A stretch of 42,109 nt of DNA, taken from positions 1 to 42,109 of the IMG/VR virus record IMGVR_UViG_3300028883_000080. The stretch is one strand, 5' to 3'. Below are positions 13,612 to 29,611 of the stretch, one piece after another (the stretch's first letter is position 1; each line of letters opens with the position of its first letter). Under the pieces are notes generated by a model, which saw nothing but the letters and a program-made list of their open reading frames with translations, was not told the DNA's origin and did not search any database. The translations under genes and the position numbers were made by a program. Source of the stretch: a virus.

Positions 13612-16152
13612 CTAGTCTATGACCCCGCTAGTCCACGCGGGGTCTCGCAGCTTCGCCGCTTCAAGTAGCTCCTCACGTGGGGCAAGACTGTACTGCTGCC
13701 CCTTTGTTACTGGTATCAGCATCGACCGACACTGATGATGCGCGGGTGGCGGCTCGACCTCCCCGCTATGGAACACCTTCCCGTCCATCTCCTCACAGTG
13801 GTCCGACGTACGGCTGTCGATGATGCTCGACCACTGGTTCGCCTCGACCCATAGCCCCGCCCTCTGCATCTGCACGACTCGTCCGTAGTTGTAGCCCCGC
13901 ATCGAGGCGTTCCGTACGATGACCTCTGTGTGCCACGGTCGGTACAGACCGCCCTTCGATGAGAGCCGCCCCGACCCGACCCACTCCTCGAAGCGTGCGT
14001 TGATTGTCGCCTCGACCGCTGACCAGTTGCCAGACGCGAAGCCCCGCTCGATGGCGAACTTCACATCACGTAGCAGTTCCCCGTGTTCATCTAGCTCCAG
14101 CCCTGCAATCCAGAACGCCCGCGCCTTCATCGCTGCCGCGTTCTTGGCGGTGATAGGTGTAAGCGTACCGAAGTACTGCCGCGCCTCCTTTGCATCGAAC
14201 GGACCTTCCTTGTACGGCATCTCATCGAACGCAAGGCACTCGGCGCCACGGTCGAACGCCTCGAACTCAACCTCGCCCGCCGTGCCGCGCTCTATCTCCT
14301 TGGAACAGTCGAGCGCACCCATGATGGCGCCCGTCAGTTCTGTGCGGTACAGGATGTCGCGGACCTTGCCGCGCCCGGTCCCGTCGATAGTGTCGAACGA
14401 ATAGAGGTCGAGCAGTGTTCCCGACCCATCCAGCAGGCCGCGCCGTCGCAGGTTATCGAGCAGCCGCCGCTGGATACGTGAGAAGGCCGCCACGATGTCC
14501 TTCTGCGCGTGGGCCTCCATCGCCCGCAGTCGGCGGTCGATGCCCTTGACGTCTACACCGACCGCCCTCTCCACGGCGCTCAACTCCCGCATGAACGCGG
14601 GGTTGTCATGCAGCCCCTTCTCGACCCGCGCCTCGGTCGTGCGCGAGAAACCTAGCACTTCACCGTCTGCTGCTTCCACCTTGGGCTTGGTGCCGGGTAC
14701 GCCCTTGGGTACGCTCACCTGCGTCTTGGTATCGTCGACCTTCTCCTTGTCCTCGTCAGTGTCGGGCGGCCGTTCGCGCATCTGCTTCGCCATCTTCTCG
14801 GCCTTGTGGGCGGCCTCCCGCTCCCGCTCCTCCCATTCCTCCTCCGTCACCTCCGAGAACTCGAGCAGCCGCCGTACCCGGTTCTCATCCTCACGACCCA
14901 CCTCCCCCACGACACCCTTCTCAGCCGCCATCACGAACGCGGTGACCACGGCAATCGCATCCTCGGGGTTCCGCTCGGGCCGCTTGTAGACCGGGTACGC
15001 ACCGTTCACATCGTAGTTGAGGTCGACGACCCGCTGGATGACCTGCTCCTGTATGCAGTTGGTGAGGTCCGTGTCCATGTCGCCACTGACCCACTCGAAC
15101 AGCCGTTGATGGACCGCCGCCTTCGCCTTCGACCCCACCTCTGTCTCGAAGGCAATCCCCATCTGTGTCGGCACGAGGATGCCCCGCAGTATCGCCGCCG
15201 CGCAGTAGGCGTCGAACTTCTGGAACTCCTCGTGGCTATGGCCCATCTTCTCCATCCAATCCAGTTCGACATCTGATGGCTTCGCTGCGCCCGCCGACGC
15301 CATGATGTGCTGAACCAGCTTCTCGTAGACGGCGACCTCGTTGGGTAGAATCCCCCTCGGATATGAAGCGACAGGCATCCCCGTGGCGGCCTTCTCGACG
15401 AACTGCGCCCACATCGGGAACACCAGCTTGCGGGCCTTGTAGTAGCGGTAGACGGAGCGCAACTGCGACCGCCCGTACGGCGACCCGAACGCATCCCCAT
15501 GGTCGTGCGCGTAGTGGACCCACTTGTCATACGGGAAGTGCTTGTCGGGTGTCCCGTCGGGCGGTGAGTACCGGATGCTCTCGACGTTCCCGTAGACGTC
15601 GAGGTCGAACCCGTAGTTGTCTGGCGGCTTGCAGGCGATACGTGAAAGGCCGACCTTCCCGGCGTACTCACCCTCCTTGATGAATCCGTACACAAGCTCC
15701 GCGAGAGCGAAGCCGTTCCATCTAGCGGTGAGCAGGCCAAGCTCTACCTGCTTGAACGGTCCCCGCATCATGGCGAGTACACGTTTTATGAAGTCGGCGA
15801 CCTCCTGCCCTTGTGGTTCCTCGGTCTCTGGCGGGTCTATGGTGTATCCAGCACCGACAACGCCTAGCGCGAGCAGGGTGGTCCCGGCCGCAACCGCTTC
15901 GTCCTTGAGCATATCCCGGTAGACGCTCAGACCTTTGGCTTGTACGAGGGTGTCGGGGTTCTCCTCCGACTCCCAACGCCCGAACTTCGAGTAGATGGCG
16001 CCAACCTCGCCCATCTGCATAGGCTTCTTGGGCTTCTCGGCCCCTGCCCATTCCCTCAGTCTGTCGCCGTACCACTCGGACTCGTGCCTGCGATAGAACA
16101 GACGAGTCTCGGGGTCGTAGCCAATGATGTAGTCCCCTACCTGAATCGGCAC
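13612..16152 (-). CDS. Portal protein fused to MuF head-morphogenesis domain
   Basis: 846 residues. The first half resembles the DUF935/Mu gp29 portal family: an N-terminal GEVGAIYSKFGRW segment, a helical GTTLLALGVVGAGYTID region, GFALAELVYGF, and the LVPTQMGIAFETEVGSKAKA region. An acidic linker (residues about 455-500) follows. The C-terminal part has a MuF (phage Mu F-like) domain: RNASMRGYNYGRVVQMQRAG, then the conserved DSRTSDHCEEMDGKVF and a PPAHHQCRS Cys/His ending. In Mu these are two proteins. The start is GTG at 16152, with AGGAGGTGGACC before it, 13 bases after the terminase stop. The portal forms the dodecameric DNA entry ring; MuF proteins are minor head components often injected with DNA. 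Confidence 0.8.
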   Translation of the reverse strand: MPIQVGDYIIGYDPETRLFYRRHESEWYGDRLREWAGAEKPKKPMQMGEVGAIYSKFGRWESEENPDTLVQAKGLSVYRDMLKDEAVAAGTTLLALGVVGAGYTIDPPETEEPQGQEVADFIKRVLAMMRGPFKQVELGLLTARWNGFALAELVYGFIKEGEYAGKVGLSRIACKPPDNYGFDLDVYGNVESIRYSPPDGTPDKHFPYDKWVHYAHDHGDAFGSPYGRSQLRSVYRYYKARKLVFPMWAQFVEKAATGMPVASYPRGILPNEVAVYEKLVQHIMASAGAAKPSDVELDWMEKMGHSHEEFQKFDAYCAAAILRGILVPTQMGIAFETEVGSKAKAAVHQRLFEWVSGDMDTDLTNCIQEQVIQRVVDLNYDVNGAYPVYKRPERNPEDAIAVVTAFVMAAEKGVVGEVGREDENRVRRLLEFSEVTEEEWEEREREAAHKAEKMAKQMRERPPDTDEDKEKVDDTKTQVSVPKGVPGTKPKVEAADGEVLGFSRTTEARVEKGLHDNPAFMRELSAVERAVGVDVKGIDRRLRAMEAHAQKDIVAAFSRIQRRLLDNLRRRGLLDGSGTLLDLYSFDTIDGTGRGKVRDILYRTELTGAIMGALDCSKEIERGTAGEVEFEAFDRGAECLAFDEMPYKEGPFDAKEARQYFGTLTPITAKNAAAMKARAFWIAGLELDEHGELLRDVKFAIERGFASGNWSAVEATINARFEEWVGSGRLSSKGGLYRPWHTEVIVRNASMRGYNYGRVVQMQRAGLWVEANQWSSIIDSRTSDHCEEMDGKVFHSGEVEPPPAHHQCRSMLIPVTKGQQYSLAPREELLEAAKLRDPAWTSGVID

Positions 16153-16165
16153 GGTCCACCTCCTG

Positions 16166-17749
16166 CTAGAACAGGTCGCTGTCCGCTGCGAGTTCGGACG
16201 CGACCGACGAAGGGACGGCGCTGACCATGGCGCTCGCCCCGCTGTGCAACTGTCGTATCTTCCAGACCGCGAACCAGAACGCCATGACCGCATCGGTCGT
16301 CGCTGCCGGGAAGTAGTGTAGCTCACGCAACCACACACAGAGCGGACACTCGCACGAGGGCGTCGAACCGTCGTGGCCGCCCTTGGTCGGAATCAGGATA
16401 CGGTGCTGGTCGAATGTCGGCCCGAGCGAGGGCAGGCCGACGAACGGGTCCATCTTCTGCTTGCCAGTGGTGAACGGCTCTACGTTGATGAACTGAGTCT
16501 CGGACAACACCTGCTCGATGAGCGCCTCTTGGTACGCGTTGTTCTCGACCACATGGTACTGCGGGTGCCAGACCTGCTCCAACCGCTTCACGGTCTCGAC
16601 CTGCTGACGGAACGGCACACGGTCCCGCACTATCTCCAAGGGGATGATGCGCCCGTCGCCGCCCATGCCCAAGACGAACGCCACGAAGTACGCAGCTTGG
16701 TCGCTCTTGCTGATGGCGAGGTCGTACCCGGCCACCCGCGTATTCACACTGAACGGGGTCTCGCCAAGCCGAACCCCGTCATCCATGCACGCCTTGACGC
16801 TATTCCAGTTCACGAGCGAGTACCCCTCTGTCGGAGGGCGGTTGTTGAAGCCACGCTCGAACTCCCACTCGCCAATCTCGCGACGCCGCTTCTCCAGCGC
16901 CGGGATGTCCCACTTCGTGTTCCAGAGCGGCACCATCGGCCCGCCCGGTTGCTCTTGGATGCGGTACACGACCCAACGCCACTCTACGTTCCGCATCAGG
17001 TACGCGTTGGCGTCCTCGGGGTGCCACGCCGTCCCGATAGCGGCCTTGCGCGTGTGTGGCTCTCCGAGGTTGGTGATGTCCGCGTCGACCGTGCGGACTA
17101 TCTTCTCTCGCTTGGTGGGTTCCAACACACTGTTCTTCCAGTCGCAGATGTCGTCGTAGAGGATGAGGTCGCCGCGTCCCGAGGTGGCAGACGAGAGAAT
17201 CGCCCTGCCCTCGAATGACGGGTCGCGTGCCGCAGCCCTTCGCTTGAGGTATATCTTGTGCTTCGACCACTCGTACTCGGGGTCGCGTTCGGCCTTCGGG
17301 AAGACCGCACGGTACCTCTCGCCGCTGATGTCGGACCGGACCAGCATCACAGTGGCGACCGCGTTCTCGTCTGTGTTCTGGAATAGCTTGATGCGCAGGT
17401 CGGGACACCACGCTAGGTCGGGTTCTGTCCCACGGCCGAGTTCCCAACTCATACGTCCGCGTGCGATGCGGCTTGTCTTGGCGTGGTCGCGTGGTGCCTG
17501 TATGCCCGCGCCTAGTCCCTCTGCCCATGCCCCCTCGATGTGTTGGTCCCACTCGCCATGCATCGGCACTTCACCAACGGGCCAGCCGTACATCCAGTAG
17601 CAGTACCAATCAATGTAACGCCTCGCCAGTTCGACGACCGCCTCGATGTAGAGCTTGTGTGAGGCGAGGACGTCGTCACTAGTTAGGCCGGGTGGGAGTG
17701 TCACGACCTGCCCGTCTGAGGACAGCGTCGGCTTTCGTAACCAATCCAA
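16166..17749 (-). CDS. terL: Terminase large subunit
   Basis: About 527 residues. The ATPase domain shows a Walker A variant APRDHAKTS (residues about 85-93) and Walker B LILYDDICDW (near 195-203). The C-terminal nuclease has the acidic residues of the RNase H-like fold: GYDLAIS (near 341-347), VENNAYQEALIEQ (near 401-413) and a late DA in TTDAVMAF. It belongs with Mu gp28-type large terminases. The start is taken as TTG at 17749, with GGAGG 6 bases upstream; a TTG at 17776 is in frame but lacks a ribosome site. It overlaps the small subunit gene by about 71 bases. It cuts and pumps DNA through the portal encoded next. Confidence 0.9.
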   Translation of the reverse strand: MDWLRKPTLSSDGQVVTLPPGLTSDDVLASHKLYIEAVVELARRYIDWYCYWMYGWPVGEVPMHGEWDQHIEGAWAEGLGAGIQAPRDHAKTSRIARGRMSWELGRGTEPDLAWCPDLRIKLFQNTDENAVATVMLVRSDISGERYRAVFPKAERDPEYEWSKHKIYLKRRAAARDPSFEGRAILSSATSGRGDLILYDDICDWKNSVLEPTKREKIVRTVDADITNLGEPHTRKAAIGTAWHPEDANAYLMRNVEWRWVVYRIQEQPGGPMVPLWNTKWDIPALEKRRREIGEWEFERGFNNRPPTEGYSLVNWNSVKACMDDGVRLGETPFSVNTRVAGYDLAISKSDQAAYFVAFVLGMGGDGRIIPLEIVRDRVPFRQQVETVKRLEQVWHPQYHVVENNAYQEALIEQVLSETQFINVEPFTTGKQKMDPFVGLPSLGPTFDQHRILIPTKGGHDGSTPSCECPLCVWLRELHYFPAATTDAVMAFWFAVWKIRQLHSGASAMVSAVPSSVASELAADSDLF

Positions 17750-25002: not shown

Positions 25003-25548
25003 TCACGGGCGCCTCCCTACGCGAGTCAGCGTGTAGACGTAGAGGTCGGCGGGTACTCCGAGCCTAGCTCGCGCATCCAACCACTCGGTACCCCACTCCT
25101 CCACGTTGACCCACCTCATGTAGACATCCCCTTCGACCACTGCGGGCCATCCGAACGACACGCCTCCCGGTGCTACGTAGTAGAGGCCATCGGCGAACTC
25201 GACGTAGCCCTTCAGCGTATCACCTATCGTCGTGTAGAAGCCGATGCACATATCAAGCGTCCACGGCCCGCCCTCGTTCTCGATTGTAGTAAGCCAACAG
25301 GCGCTCGGTATTGGATGCACCGTATCGGGTGGCGCCGACCCTCGCGTCAGCGTGACGGCGCCTGATTCCATAGGGAGTGTGTAGTCGAGGATGCCGACGG
25401 GCGACGCGGTGACGTTCTGCTGCTCCTGCCCTGCCACAACCGCGTATGATTCACCCGGCGCATACACGACCATCAGGTGTTCGCTAGCATCTGCTCGTCC
25501 TTCACTACAGCACGTGAGAACGAGAACCGCCAGCGCCCAACGCACCAT
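25003..25548 (-). CDS. Exported protein, 181 residues
   Basis: Starts MVRWALAVLVLTCCSEGRADA, an export signal; the Cys residues near the cut resemble a lipobox but the surrounding residues are not typical. The mature part is beta-rich with SACWLTTIENEGGPW and LYYVAPGGVSFGW, fitting a sandwich domain. Its first 76 bases overlap the end of the nuclease gene upstream. GGAGG lies 11 bases and AGGGACG close to the ATG. Function unknown. Confidence 0.7.
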   Translation of the reverse strand: MVRWALAVLVLTCCSEGRADASEHLMVVYAPGESYAVVAGQEQQNVTASPVGILDYTLPMESGAVTLTRGSAPPDTVHPIPSACWLTTIENEGGPWTLDMCIGFYTTIGDTLKGYVEFADGLYYVAPGGVSFGWPAVVEGDVYMRWVNVEEWGTEWLDARARLGVPADLYVYTLTRVGRRP

Positions 25549-26066
25549 CGTCCCTGTCCTCCTTTCAACACTTCCTCCCTTGGTACCAGTAGCACCTTGC
25601 CCCGCTCGTCACCAAGCGGGTTCACGATGCGCCACGCCTCGCCAAGCTCCTCCTTCCAGTCGCGCTCACGCTTGACCCATGCGACCAGACCGGGGTATGT
25701 GAACCAGTAGACCACCCCACTCATAGGTCTGCCTTGGTAGCCTGACCCGATGGGTGGACTCATGCTATGGACCTCTACGTACGCGACGTACTGAGGCGCC
25801 TCCGCAGGGTCGTACCGCAGTAGTCCCGGCTTCCCATCAATCTCAAGCTCGAACGCGAAGTTGCCCGTGTCCTTCATCTGCCTGTCCGTCTTGACCTCCA
25901 CGCGTTGCCCCAAGAACTCGAAGTCGTAACCACGGACAGGTGATAGTCGGGCGTGCTTCATCGTCGCCTCGACAATCCGCTTCACGGTGAGCGTTGCCAC
26001 CAACACCTCCCCGGCCTGCCCGTACATGAGGTCAACATCGAACGGCGCGAAGCAGTCACTACCCAT
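25473..26066 (-). CDS. PD-(D/E)XK-type nuclease-like protein
   Basis: 197 residues. YDFEFLGQRVEVKTDRQM near residues 47-64 has the Asp...Glu-x-Lys arrangement of the PD-(D/E)XK nuclease fold, and the following TGNFAFELEIDGKPG matches a common phage family that begins 'vEVKtD...TGNffvE'. Later WRIVNPLGDERGKVLLVPRE completes the domain. Such proteins may trim DNA ends in recombination or attack host DNA. AAGGGGGCAGT precedes the ATG. It lies downstream of RusA-like and ERF genes, so a role in DNA recombination is likely. Confidence 0.6.
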   Translation of the reverse strand: MGSDCFAPFDVDLMYGQAGEVLVATLTVKRIVEATMKHARLSPVRGYDFEFLGQRVEVKTDRQMKDTGNFAFELEIDGKPGLLRYDPAEAPQYVAYVEVHSMSPPIGSGYQGRPMSGVVYWFTYPGLVAWVKRERDWKEELGEAWRIVNPLGDERGKVLLVPREEVLKGGQGRWCVGRWRFSFSRAVVKDEQMLANT

Positions 26067-26346: not shown

Positions 26347-26509
26347 GGTCTTCCTCCTTGCCGTTCAGAGTCTTGAGGATGGCGTCGACCTCAACCAACT
26401 CGCGGACCAGTGCTGCCTGCTGCTTCAGTATCGCGACACGCCTTTGCTTCGCCTCATACAACAGCTGCCTACGTGTCTGGCGGCTGATGCCGTACGGTGT
26501 GTATGACAT
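26324..26509 (-). CDS. Small coiled-coil protein, 61 residues
   Basis: After MSYTPYGISRQTRRQLLYEA comes a helical, heptad-like stretch (KQQAALVRELVEVDAILKTL), probably a short dimeric coiled coil. The start has the conserved GGGAGGGTC element and lies inside the last codons of the RusA-like gene (41-base overlap). It may be a DNA-binding or partner protein for the recombination genes next to it. No family recognised. Confidence 0.65.
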   Translation of the reverse strand: MSYTPYGISRQTRRQLLYEAKQRRVAILKQQAALVRELVEVDAILKTLNGKEEDHAAKTGG

Positions 26510-27002
26510 TCGACCCTCCCTTTGCTCTGTTCGCTACATACGCGAACTCGCCTCTAGGGTACGGGCCATGCAACACGACCCATACCCGCCCACAATCCGC
26601 ACCGTCACGCATCGCCACAAGGCGCGGTACCACCAGCTTGTCGCTCACCCCGCTCTTGTAGAACAGCGCGTCGACGATACCCTTCACCACGTTGTCGCAG
26701 TCCCCGTGAGACCGCCCCTTGAACTGGATACGGATGTCACAGAGGTACTGCGAGTCCTTCCCGGCCAGCATGGGGTACACCTCGTCACGTAGCATCCTCG
26801 CCGCATCGCGGTCGAGTGCTGCCAGTACGTGCTTCGCATAGGCACAGTACCGACCGTACGGCGTCAGCCGCCCGCGTCGGTCCTGCTTCCACTTGCCGCG
26901 CTGCGTCGTGCGCGTGTACGGTACGGGGTTGCCGTCCCGTTCGCGCCCGTTGCCCACGACCTCGAAGCTGATGTGTACCGCCACGCTAGCCGCCTTGTGC
27001 AT
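26469..27002 (-). CDS. Holliday junction resolvase, RusA-like
   Basis: About 177 residues. It has the RusA features: an N-terminal FEVVGNGRERDGNPVPYTR strand, a long helix, and the acidic core GDCDNVVKGIVDALFYKSG (Asp-x-Asp-Asn-x-x-Lys-x-x-x-Asp) near residues 115-133, followed by DKLVVPRLVAMRDGA. RusA resolves four-way junctions made during phage recombination and replication. The start is uncertain: ATG at 27002 has a weak CAGGTT site, and GTG at 26984 has AAGGCGG. It follows the ERF gene and the candidate origin, and both are natural partners. Confidence 0.8.
   Translation of the reverse strand: MHKAASVAVHISFEVVGNGRERDGNPVPYTRTTQRGKWKQDRRGRLTPYGRYCAYAKHVLAALDRDAARMLRDEVYPMLAGKDSQYLCDIRIQFKGRSHGDCDNVVKGIVDALFYKSGVSDKLVVPRLVAMRDGADCGRVWVVLHGPYPRGEFAYVANRAKGGSNVIHTVRHQPPDT
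26512..26520 (-). promoter_or_regulatory. Start-associated element GGGAGGGTC (one of six)
   Basis: The exact nonamer GGGAGGGTC (minus strand) lies 1-5 bases before start codons at 26512, 28261, 28680, 30090, 30626 and 32393 (left ends on the plus strand). Most copies are preceded by A or AA. The core can pair with 16S rRNA, but the constant TC at the 3' end goes beyond what pairing needs. It resembles the start-associated sequences of cluster K mycobacteriophages in concept. Confidence 0.75.
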
Positions 27003-27216
27003 AACCTGTGGGCAACCCGGTGTACAGTCGGTGCATAGCAGTGGGCAACTCGGGCAGGGGCCACCCCTGTACACCGCTACCCACAGTTACCCACCACTTA
27101 TGCACACCTACTCCCCTGTGTAAGTGCTTCCCTGTCACCGGGTTGCCTCACTTGTCCACATATGCACCGCCCCTACTACTACTACTATGTTGTTATCTAA
27201 GTAGGGGTAGTAGTAC
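26996..27216. other. Candidate replication origin with DnaA boxes
   Basis: Two perfect DnaA boxes TTATGCACA lie at 27098-27106 (plus) and 26996-27004 (minus), with a one-mismatch TTGTCCACA at 27152-27160 and several weaker TTACCCAC/TGGGCAA boxes. A perfect 12-base inverted repeat, GGCAACCCGGTG at 27011-27022 and CACCGGGTTGCC at 27136-27147, encloses the core. Next to it is an AT-rich run of CTA repeats (27173-27200) that could open, bounded by CCCCTAC/GTAGGGG. It lies between the ERF and RusA-like genes and is the main non-coding stretch of the early region. Confidence 0.65.
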
Positions 27217-28258
27217 CTACGGCACCCTCCGCTTCGTCAGTGGTGGGTCCGTCGGGGTTGCCATACTGCATCTGGTTCCGCTTCGCCTCGGCCTGATGCT
27301 CCTCGCAGTAGGCTGGCGGTAGACCGAGGATTCCGCAGGTCAGCACCTCCTTGTCGCTGAGTACTGTCCCACAGACCTTGCAGGCGCACTCGCCCTTGAC
27401 GGCAGGAGTAGCAATCGCCTCGGCAATCACCACGGCATCCTCAACCTGTGGGGTATCCTCGCTCACCGCATACCCGTACTCCACAAGCGCCTTTGTCGGT
27501 CCGTCACCAGTCAACCACGTGACGAGCTTCGGTACTCGCTCCGGGTTCGAGAGGACGCCCACCATCGTCAAGAGAACAGCGGGCGAGCAATCCTTCGTGC
27601 TGCTGGCTGCGCCCTTGGTCATGTCGGCCACGAACCCGCGCTTCATGTCGTGCAGGACCGCGTCGGTCACCTCAGGCGAGACCACCTCTCTCACCCTCTC
27701 TATGACCTCCTGCCATCGTGCATGGAACAGCTTGCTAGCAGTCGCGTGGTCGACCTTCGGCTCCTCCTCACGTGTTGGTGCCGGGATGGAAGCCGCCGCA
27801 CCGTCGTCGTCCCGACCGCTCGCCATGTTGAGAAGCGCGTACCACGAGTAGCGGCGAACGTAGCTCTCCGCTGACCCGATTGCCTGCGGCGAGTCCTGCG
27901 CTGGTCCCATGCCCATCATGCAGCCGTAGTACTGACCCGACGTATGGACAAGGCGCGACTCAACCCACACTACGCCGTCGCGGTGCGCCACCCCCTGAAT
28001 CATCAACACGCCGTTGTCGTTCAGCGGGGGCTTCGCTACTTCAAGCACCGCATCGAGCGGAGTGTAGTCGTATGAGTACGTGCCGCCCTTCTTCGTCGGG
28101 ACCGTAGCTGTCTCGGAACGCGGCAGGGTTGGTATCCGCTTCTGCGCTGCGATTAGCGCAGGTACTATCTCTGTGACGTCAACTGAGTGGCACAGGATAG
28201 GAGTGCCTTGCGGCAACCCGTCCGTATCCATCACCACATCCAGCTTCTCCTCTACCAT
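27197..28258 (-). CDS. erf: ERF-family single-strand annealing protein
   Basis: 353 residues. Residues about 25-165 form an ERF domain: VTEIVPALIAAQKRIPTL, then YSYDYTPLDAVLEVAKPPLN, GVLMIQGVAH, and the family signature IGSAESYVRRYSWYALLNM followed by an acidic DDDG. ERF proteins anneal complementary single strands in phage recombination. The C-terminal part has a Cys-rich stretch (CACKVCGTVL, then EVLTCG) that may bind zinc. The start has the GGGAGGGTC element. It lies next to the candidate origin and RusA-like gene, so these form a recombination-replication unit. Confidence 0.85.
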   Translation of the reverse strand: MVEEKLDVVMDTDGLPQGTPILCHSVDVTEIVPALIAAQKRIPTLPRSETATVPTKKGGTYSYDYTPLDAVLEVAKPPLNDNGVLMIQGVAHRDGVVWVESRLVHTSGQYYGCMMGMGPAQDSPQAIGSAESYVRRYSWYALLNMASGRDDDGAAASIPAPTREEEPKVDHATASKLFHARWQEVIERVREVVSPEVTDAVLHDMKRGFVADMTKGAASSTKDCSPAVLLTMVGVLSNPERVPKLVTWLTGDGPTKALVEYGYAVSEDTPQVEDAVVIAEAIATPAVKGECACKVCGTVLSDKEVLTCGILGLPPAYCEEHQAEAKRNQMQYGNPDGPTTDEAEGAVGTTTPT

Positions 28259-28272
28259 CTGACCCTCCCTTA

Positions 28273-28677
28273 CTAGAACGTGTAGCCACGGAGCGGCCTG
28301 TACCCACCACGCTCCGCAGCCCGCTTCCTTTCACGTTCATCCTCAACGAACAACTCGCCCTCGGACCGCTCCACTTCGCGCTGCCCCGTCTTGCGAAGCC
28401 AAACGTCGGCACACTCCCGAGAGCAGAACATCCCCGTCGTCACGCCGTCGCTCTCCACTACGGCCGCCCGACACGCCACGTTGCAGTTCCAACAGCGGCA
28501 GTCGTCCCCGACCTCCTTTCGTAGTGCCTCCTGTAGTCGCTTCCTAGTGTGTGCCATCGCACACGACCATGAACAGTACGGTATCTGTTGCCCCTCATCA
28601 ATGAGGAGCGGGTAGGGCGTCCGTAGTACCAACGGCTCTCCACACCATAGACAGTGCGTCACCTTCTCCTCACTCAT
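28273..28677 (-). CDS. Zinc-finger protein, 134 residues
   Basis: Two treble-clef-like zinc sites: HCLWCGEPL with PYCSWSCAMAH, and CRCWNCNVAC with MFCSRECADVW. The CS.SC and CS.EC endings resemble MYM/FCS-type fingers. A basic and acidic tail follows (DERERKRAAERGG). The ATG has the GGGAGGGTC element and overlaps the end of the membrane protein gene upstream. Probably a DNA- or protein-binding factor; no closer family recognised. Confidence 0.7.
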   Translation of the reverse strand: MSEEKVTHCLWCGEPLVLRTPYPLLIDEGQQIPYCSWSCAMAHTRKRLQEALRKEVGDDCRCWNCNVACRAAVVESDGVTTGMFCSRECADVWLRKTGQREVERSEGELFVEDERERKRAAERGGYRPLRGYTF

Positions 28678-29408: not shown

Positions 29409-29611
29409 TCTGCCCCCTCTCGCTCCGCACGACGCTCCGCGTCTTCGCGGTCCATGGTCTCGGTCATGCGCTTGATGATGTAGTCCGTCAGCGTCGCCTT
29501 CTTGGGGTCACGATTCTCGACACGCGCCAACCTCCGAGCGTGCCGCCCTAGTCGCAGCTTGAACTTGGGGTCGCACCAGAACGCGATGCGCCCCACTGTT
29601 CCCGTAGCCAT
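29405..29611 (-). CDS. Ribbon-helix-helix-like regulator, 68 residues
   Basis: RIAFWCDPKFKLRLGRHARR, then KATLTDYIIKRMTETMD, has the strand-helix-helix layout of CopG/Arc-type repressors: a beta strand with alternating polar residues, a basic first helix, and a second helix starting at T/S-x-x-DYI. The size fits the family. GGAGGTCAT precedes the ATG. It is the first gene after its own sigma70-type promoter, and a 31-base near-perfect palindrome lies over the predicted start of transcription. Together these suggest autorepression. It probably controls the early operon downstream. Confidence 0.65.
   Translation of the reverse strand: MATGTVGRIAFWCDPKFKLRLGRHARRLARVENRDPKKATLTDYIIKRMTETMDREDAERRAEREGAE

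Follow-up and report, generated by a model that had tools for sequence, protein, structure and literature searches.

Positions 26996 to 27212 of the phage record IMGVR_UViG_3300028883_000080 probably form a replication origin that, judged from its sequence, has the architecture of an origin from a bacterial chromosome and would be fired by host DnaA. The DNA analyzed here, referred to as the window, comprises positions 1 to 42,109 of this record (42,109 bases). The evidence consists of the anatomy of the element, a statistical excess of its motifs, conservation in four phages, an oriC-like layout, and the absence of detectable initiator, helicase and polymerase genes. A first-pass annotation had proposed a DnaA-box origin that recruits host DnaA. 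With no initiator, helicase or polymerase found, this proposal stands as the best-supported reading, but the annotation had not recognized a CTA run as DnaA-trios, had missed the layout of the box arrays and had misjudged the role of an inverted repeat.

Genomic setting of the element

The element occupies a 200-bp gap between the genes for an ERF annealing protein and a RusA-like resolvase (Table 1). The rusA start codon is either the ATG at 27000-27002, which lies within the first DnaA box, or a GTG slightly further in. Searches of the window against Pfam and PHROGs identified ERF, RusA, packaging, head, tail and lysis proteins, an ArdC-like protein and others, with TerL, portal, head and tail proteins all encoded. 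The window encodes phage proteins and, unlike the surroundings of a chromosome origin, neither DnaA nor DnaN. In Pfam, and in PHROGs for the proteins scanned, no DnaA, Rep, O-type initiator, replicative helicase or polymerase was found in the window. Beside rusA, positions 25473-26066 encode a small conserved protein of no known family that is 49% identical in a related phage (G001, described below); a sequence motif suggests that it may be a nuclease. Nearly all genes of the window lie on one strand. The GC skew stays negative in each kilobase and never turns, so that the skew check suggested earlier is uninformative here. The two ends of the window map to adjacent positions in G001, and the window is therefore close to a complete genome.

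Table 1 Features of the putative origin and its flanking genes, in window coordinates
Feature	Position	Strand	Basis	Remarks
RusA-like Holliday-junction resolvase gene	26469-27002	-	phrog_6537, 7e-13; below Pfam cut-off	directly downstream of the element
DnaA-box array, minus strand	26996-27048	-	box map and shuffles	steps of 11, 12, 11 and 10 bp
Minus-array boxes 1-3: TTATGCACA, TTGCCCACA, CTGTACACC	26996-27004, 27007-27015, 27019-27027	-		
Minus-array boxes 4-5: CTATGCACC, TTGCCCACT	27030-27038, 27040-27048	-		
12-base perfect inverted repeat, left arm GGCAACCCGGTG	27011-27022			inside minus array
Central hairpin CAGGGG-CCA-CCCCTG	27055-27069		sequence, folds	separates the opposed arrays
DnaA-box array, plus strand	27067-27106	+	box map	steps of 10, 10 and 11 bp
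Plus-array boxes: CTGTACACC, CTACCCACA, TTACCCACC, TTATGCACA	from 27067, 27077, 27087, 27098	+		
12-base perfect inverted repeat, right arm CACCGGGTTGCC	27136-27147			just upstream of the BUS boxes
Tandem BUS DnaA boxes: TTGTCCACA, ATATGCACC	27152-27168 (27152-27160, 27160-27168)	+		one-base overlap, pointing toward the trios
GC-rich spacer GCCC	27169-27172	+	sequence	4-5 bp GC-rich between box and trio in PMC8235120
Five DnaA-trios, 5'-CTA-3'	27173-27187	+		12 bp after the TTGTCCACA box
AT-rich stretch, predicted unwinding region	27188-27212			follows the trios; 64% AT over 25 bp
ERF single-strand annealing protein gene	27197-28258	-	Pfam, PHROGs	flanks the element directly upstream

Opposed DnaA-box arrays

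A relaxed box map places about 11 DnaA-box-like sites within 170 bp of the gap: five on the minus strand, four on the plus strand, and then an overlapping plus-strand pair. Many of the array boxes differ from the consensus by one or two bases, and this consensus may not be that of the DnaA of the phage's host. Two exact TTATGCACA boxes in opposite directions (26996-27004, minus; 27098-27106, plus), one near-perfect box (TTGTCCACA, plus) and a perfect 12-base inverted repeat had been described earlier and are all present, although the number of boxes had been undercounted. The repeat was also thought to bound the origin, which is incorrect: it sits within the array. In 27131-27160, the sequence of 26996-27027 seems to recur as a copy in inverted and diverged form, and the right arm of the repeat belongs to that copy.

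The clustering of these sites, rather than the mere occurrence of two exact boxes, sets the gap apart. Counted over the whole window, as had been suggested, exact TTATNCACA occurs twice, both times in this gap. Such a pair had been called improbable by chance; it is only mildly so (0.40 expected, two reached in 7 of 100 shuffles), whereas the clustering is significant: the genome contains four TTRYNCACA words, all of them inside 165 bp, and none of 300 shuffles placed four within 230 bp. Same-strand box pairs at 10-12 bp number seven, compared to 0.04 expected per shuffle. Likewise, neither a box lying 0-16 bp from at least three CTA units nor a box with at most one mismatch together with three or more CTA units arose in 300 shuffled windows. 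A functionless chance cluster, for which the roughly 7% of shuffles that yield two exact boxes might speak, is contradicted by these results, by the retention of the element in four phages and by the retrieval of a true relative with a non-coding pattern; with conservation already refuting it, the probability left to this reading is practically nil.

A module with the layout of a bacterial unwinding element

The bacterial basal unwinding system (BUS) consists of DnaA boxes, a spacer, repeated 3'-GAT-5' trios and AT-rich DNA (PMC8287927, PMC8235120). Its trios lie no more than 16 bp from a box, with a spacer peak at 10-13 bp, and tandem boxes are the most frequent arrangement (PMC8287927). The order read along the DNA is 4-5 bp of GC-rich sequence, 5'-CTA-3' and AT-rich DNA (PMC8235120), and in B. 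subtilis reversal of boxes #6/#7 inactivates the BUS (PMC6669920). The window contains every sequence feature of this bacterial module. The box beside the trios is of the TTATCCACA type within two mismatches (TTGTCCACA has one). The CTA repeats, five where a minimum of three in the right polarity was required, read as 3'-GAT-5' on the strand that DnaA would bind. The GCCC spacer precedes them, and the DNA that follows reaches 64% AT, compared with about 38% for the genome. The run itself, (CTA)x5, had been noticed as an AT-rich repeat stretch; the run is present, but it is not itself very AT-rich, and rather than a generic AT-rich stretch it matches the DnaA-trio part of the bacterial BUS.

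Conservation in related phages

The scan of viral contigs described below, in which the pattern was non-coding only, returned as the match closest in layout a phage (G001, IMGVR_UViG_3300011118_000010) whose synteny with the window extends from end to end (protein identity 64% for TerL, 49% for portal, 53% for the major head protein and 52% for RusA). Two further relatives, G023 (IMGVR_UViG_3300009494_000005; L112-L114) and G024, were found through TerL alignment and have the module in the corresponding position, upstream of rusA; they were missed by the strict pattern because their first BUS box is CCGTCCACA. Thus, the element is present in all four phages of the group although their proteins are just about 30-64% identical. 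In the four-way alignment, TCCACAT.T.CAC....CCTACTACTACTACT is nearly invariant. The distance between box and trios is 12 bp in each phage, the trios number five, five, five and four (window, G001, G023 and G024, respectively), and a CTA run of at least four units occurs once per genome, each time at this element. A box of the TTATCCACA type within two mismatches is also found in G001 and G024; it is lacking in G023, where the first box is CCGTCCACA and the second ATTTCCACC. A hairpin occupies the same position in the relatives with a different sequence in each.

The flanking genes are less constant than the element. Only rusA is clearly conserved as a syntenic neighbor in all four phages. The ERF domain is absent from G001, G023 and G024, and hence ERF is not conserved; the upstream gene there shares its C-terminal part with the ERF gene of the window, clearly in G001 (3e-8) and weakly in G023 and G024. 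A structure model of this upstream gene product had a pLDDT of 46, too poor for use. No DnaA, DnaB, Rep or DNA polymerase was detected in G001 or G024, and the DnaA-, DnaN- and DnaC-like matches in the scan of the relatives came from bacterial control contigs (L127, L086). Among known families, neither the window nor G001 or G024 shows the combination of a self-encoded Rep or O-like initiator with iterons. Single-protein searches with ERF, RusA and portal found no relatives, a DNA search of INPHARED with the window gave no match, and a scan of genome contigs for hosts or prophages returned just one TerL, 24% identical, in an Acidimicrobiales MAG. In G023, about 10 kb is present twice, as non-identical versions at the two ends, which probably reflects an assembly that joined two strains of one circular genome.

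Proposed mechanism and alternative explanations

Because the gap holds what look like both landing sites for DnaA and a DNA-opening element, host DnaA probably starts replication here. From the bacterial BUS, we infer DnaA binding, unwinding, helicase loading and origin activity as follows. Host DnaA would bind both of the opposed arrays, which are helically phased, as well as the tandem boxes (27152 and 27160). Starting at the tandem pair, a DnaA-ATP filament would extend onto the minus-strand TAG trinucleotides (CTA on the plus strand) and stretch them, upon which the AT-rich DNA at 27188-27212 would open and the host helicase loader, helicase, primase and polymerase could assemble. ERF and RusA may serve later, in recombination-dependent replication and the resolution of concatemers.

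The main alternative is that an unrecognized phage initiator opens the origin by binding the repeats as iterons, with the DnaA boxes assisting, as in P1, RK2 or lambda-like systems. The majority of phage and plasmid origins operate in this way, and a 2024 review describes DnaA as assisting the plasmid Rep rather than acting as main initiator (PMC10797057). In addition, many proteins of the window have no known family, and the upstream gene of the relatives has an N-terminal part that matches no identified family. However, the repeat units are themselves DnaA-box-like with no separate iteron, the trio module in bacteria requires no other protein, rusA is the one neighbor clearly shared by all four phages, and no Rep, O-protein or helicase family was detected. 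A phage initiator is therefore considered unlikely. The density of boxes would also suit a DnaA sink, either titrating host DnaA in the manner of datA so that initiation at the host chromosome is slowed, or regulating phage genes, and a gap within a run of same-strand genes could be a regulatory site. A sink or an operator would work without GC-rich, trio and AT-rich elements in the correct spacing and orientation, yet nothing in the element is better conserved among the four phages, and no sigma-70-like promoter or terminator was found in the gap; this explanation is improbable, more so than a phage initiator.

The arrays can also be viewed as one long imperfect palindrome acting as a structured RNA or as single-stranded DNA, for example as a hairpin with DnaA boxes for helicase loading of the ABC-primosome type. 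The segment does fold better than its shuffles in the window and in G001 (z about -5 to -6), but in G024 z is only about -2 on either strand, and arrays of a single motif that face each other are necessarily complementary, which accounts for the folding excess. With no Rfam match above the gathering score, the RNA reading was rejected, and hairpin schemes in general, which leave the conserved trio module unexplained, are very improbable. An origin fired by host DnaA thus accounts best for the arrays and the trio module together.

BUS-like modules in other viruses

Scanned across 2.9 million viral contigs, the pattern gave 27 matches with the box in the right polarity; with the box reversed as a control, it gave 7. 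Seven of the 27 belong to one repeated single-box family (L052, L053, L055, L061, L072, L075, L077), whose members are unlikely to be origins, and the seven controls likewise include one family of four (L078, L080-L082); counted by eye, about 19 matches and 4 controls are left once this redundancy is removed. Many of the right-polarity matches lie within arrays of 3-11 boxes, whereas the controls have 0-1, except for L076, which is itself also a test match. No Bac_DnaA gene was found in any of 21 records checked, and several encode terminase, tail or annealing proteins; these records are therefore not simply contigs of bacterial oriC. Two INPHARED entries labeled "Bacteriophage sp." (L086 and L127; MT836067, MT836079) were rejected as phages, being bacterial oriC contigs (with dnaN, and in L127 also dnaA), and served only as positive controls. 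The end of Listeria phage LM 4-11-1 (L087, OR846725) is likewise oriC-like DNA, and two PLSDB entries (L131, L132; NZ_CP140268.1, CP117684.1) start with dnaA-oriC-dnaN and look like chromosome pieces labeled as plasmids.

The BUS layout was also observed in four further phage contigs: G002 at 29409, G005 at 17619, G006 at 14531 and G007 at 28317 (L092, L093, L095, L105). RecT and an exonuclease are encoded immediately upstream in G006, whereas G005 has a terminase and a tape measure protein and G007 a DnaB-like helicase. In gokushoviruses, which have single-stranded DNA (L085 3621-3745, L122-L126; e.g., KT264804, KT264798, KT264801), a possible BUS-like module lies in the gap directly after VP4, with box-like pairs of varying quality, a GC-rich spacer and a CTA run; KT264804 has five TTATCCACA. 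No paper on such a module in gokushoviruses was found. A separate scan with a composite motif (GTGCATA..GTGGGYAAC) gave 48 matches, mostly chance, with one real box array: L022 420-880 (IMGVR_UViG_3300043432_000037), a dense TTATCCAC/TTATGCACA array in a gap, without a CTA run.

Unrelated lineages of phages might have arrived at BUS mimicry, in which host DnaA by itself starts replication and the phage supplies no initiator, and the strategy would then be a general one. The lineages in question are the tailed-phage group described here, the tailed phages G002, G005, G006 and G007, and the gokushoviruses. This generalization is put forward tentatively, as a possibility that falls somewhat short of an even chance.

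Novelty and implications

The module is known from bacterial chromosomes, and DnaA boxes are known at the origins of mobile elements; what appears to be new is a BUS-like element on a phage without a recognizable initiator. A literature search, chiefly of titles and abstracts, yielded no paper reporting DnaA-trios at the origin of a phage. The general understanding is that phage and plasmid origins need a self-encoded initiator, with DnaA at most a helper. If the proposal is correct, the phages of this group possess the bacterial unwinding module in full. Such a natural minimal oriC, on a replicon both small and fast, would offer a clean system for asking what DnaA requires to open DNA. Such phages would have to escape or override host controls on DnaA, and their host range would be limited to hosts whose DnaA fits the phage boxes and trios. 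Phage origins could then also be found by their non-coding signature, as was the case for G001.

Comparison with known origins

Like the oriR of P1 and other iteron plasmids, the phage element combines DnaA boxes with an adjacent AT-rich stretch on a mobile element. In contrast, those origins need a self-encoded Rep acting on iterons, and in the phage neither a Rep gene nor a non-DnaA iteron was detected. The 2024 review also notes that no data show DnaA on the single-stranded DUE DNA of plasmids (PMC10797057). A Pseudomonas phage with DnaA boxes predicted by Ori-Finder encodes its own primase and polymerase (PMC11512268).

Compared with the A-site of the ABC-primosome (R6K), the phage DnaA boxes could occupy hairpin stems if the strand were single. 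However, the hairpins vary among the relatives, and the double-stranded BUS layout better explains the conserved part. In E. coli, the orisome at oriC is built on two arrays of opposite polarity with steps of about 11 bp, and the phage element likewise has two opposed arrays with steps of about 11 bp. The E. coli origin differs in that it lacks the classic module of GC-rich sequence plus trios (PMC8235120) and uses IHF.

The closest counterpart is the bacterial BUS of the B. subtilis type. The phage element departs from it in lying between ERF and rusA instead of beside dnaA and dnaN, in having no phage dnaA, and in its divergent boxes. It shares with the bacterial module the tandem boxes of the same polarity, the 4-bp GC-rich sequence, the CTA run, the AT-rich DNA and the 12-bp spacing (PMC6669920, PMC8287927). 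In agreement with this shared layout, annotated bacterial oriCs align over the phage module. For an unselected 251-bp region, the best match in a plasmid collection was Priestia megaterium 1437-1476, weak on its own (E 0.02), which is an annotated dnaA-dnaN gap. With the G001 module as query, the annotated dnaA-dnaN oriC of Latilactobacillus curvatus was aligned and has the same layout.
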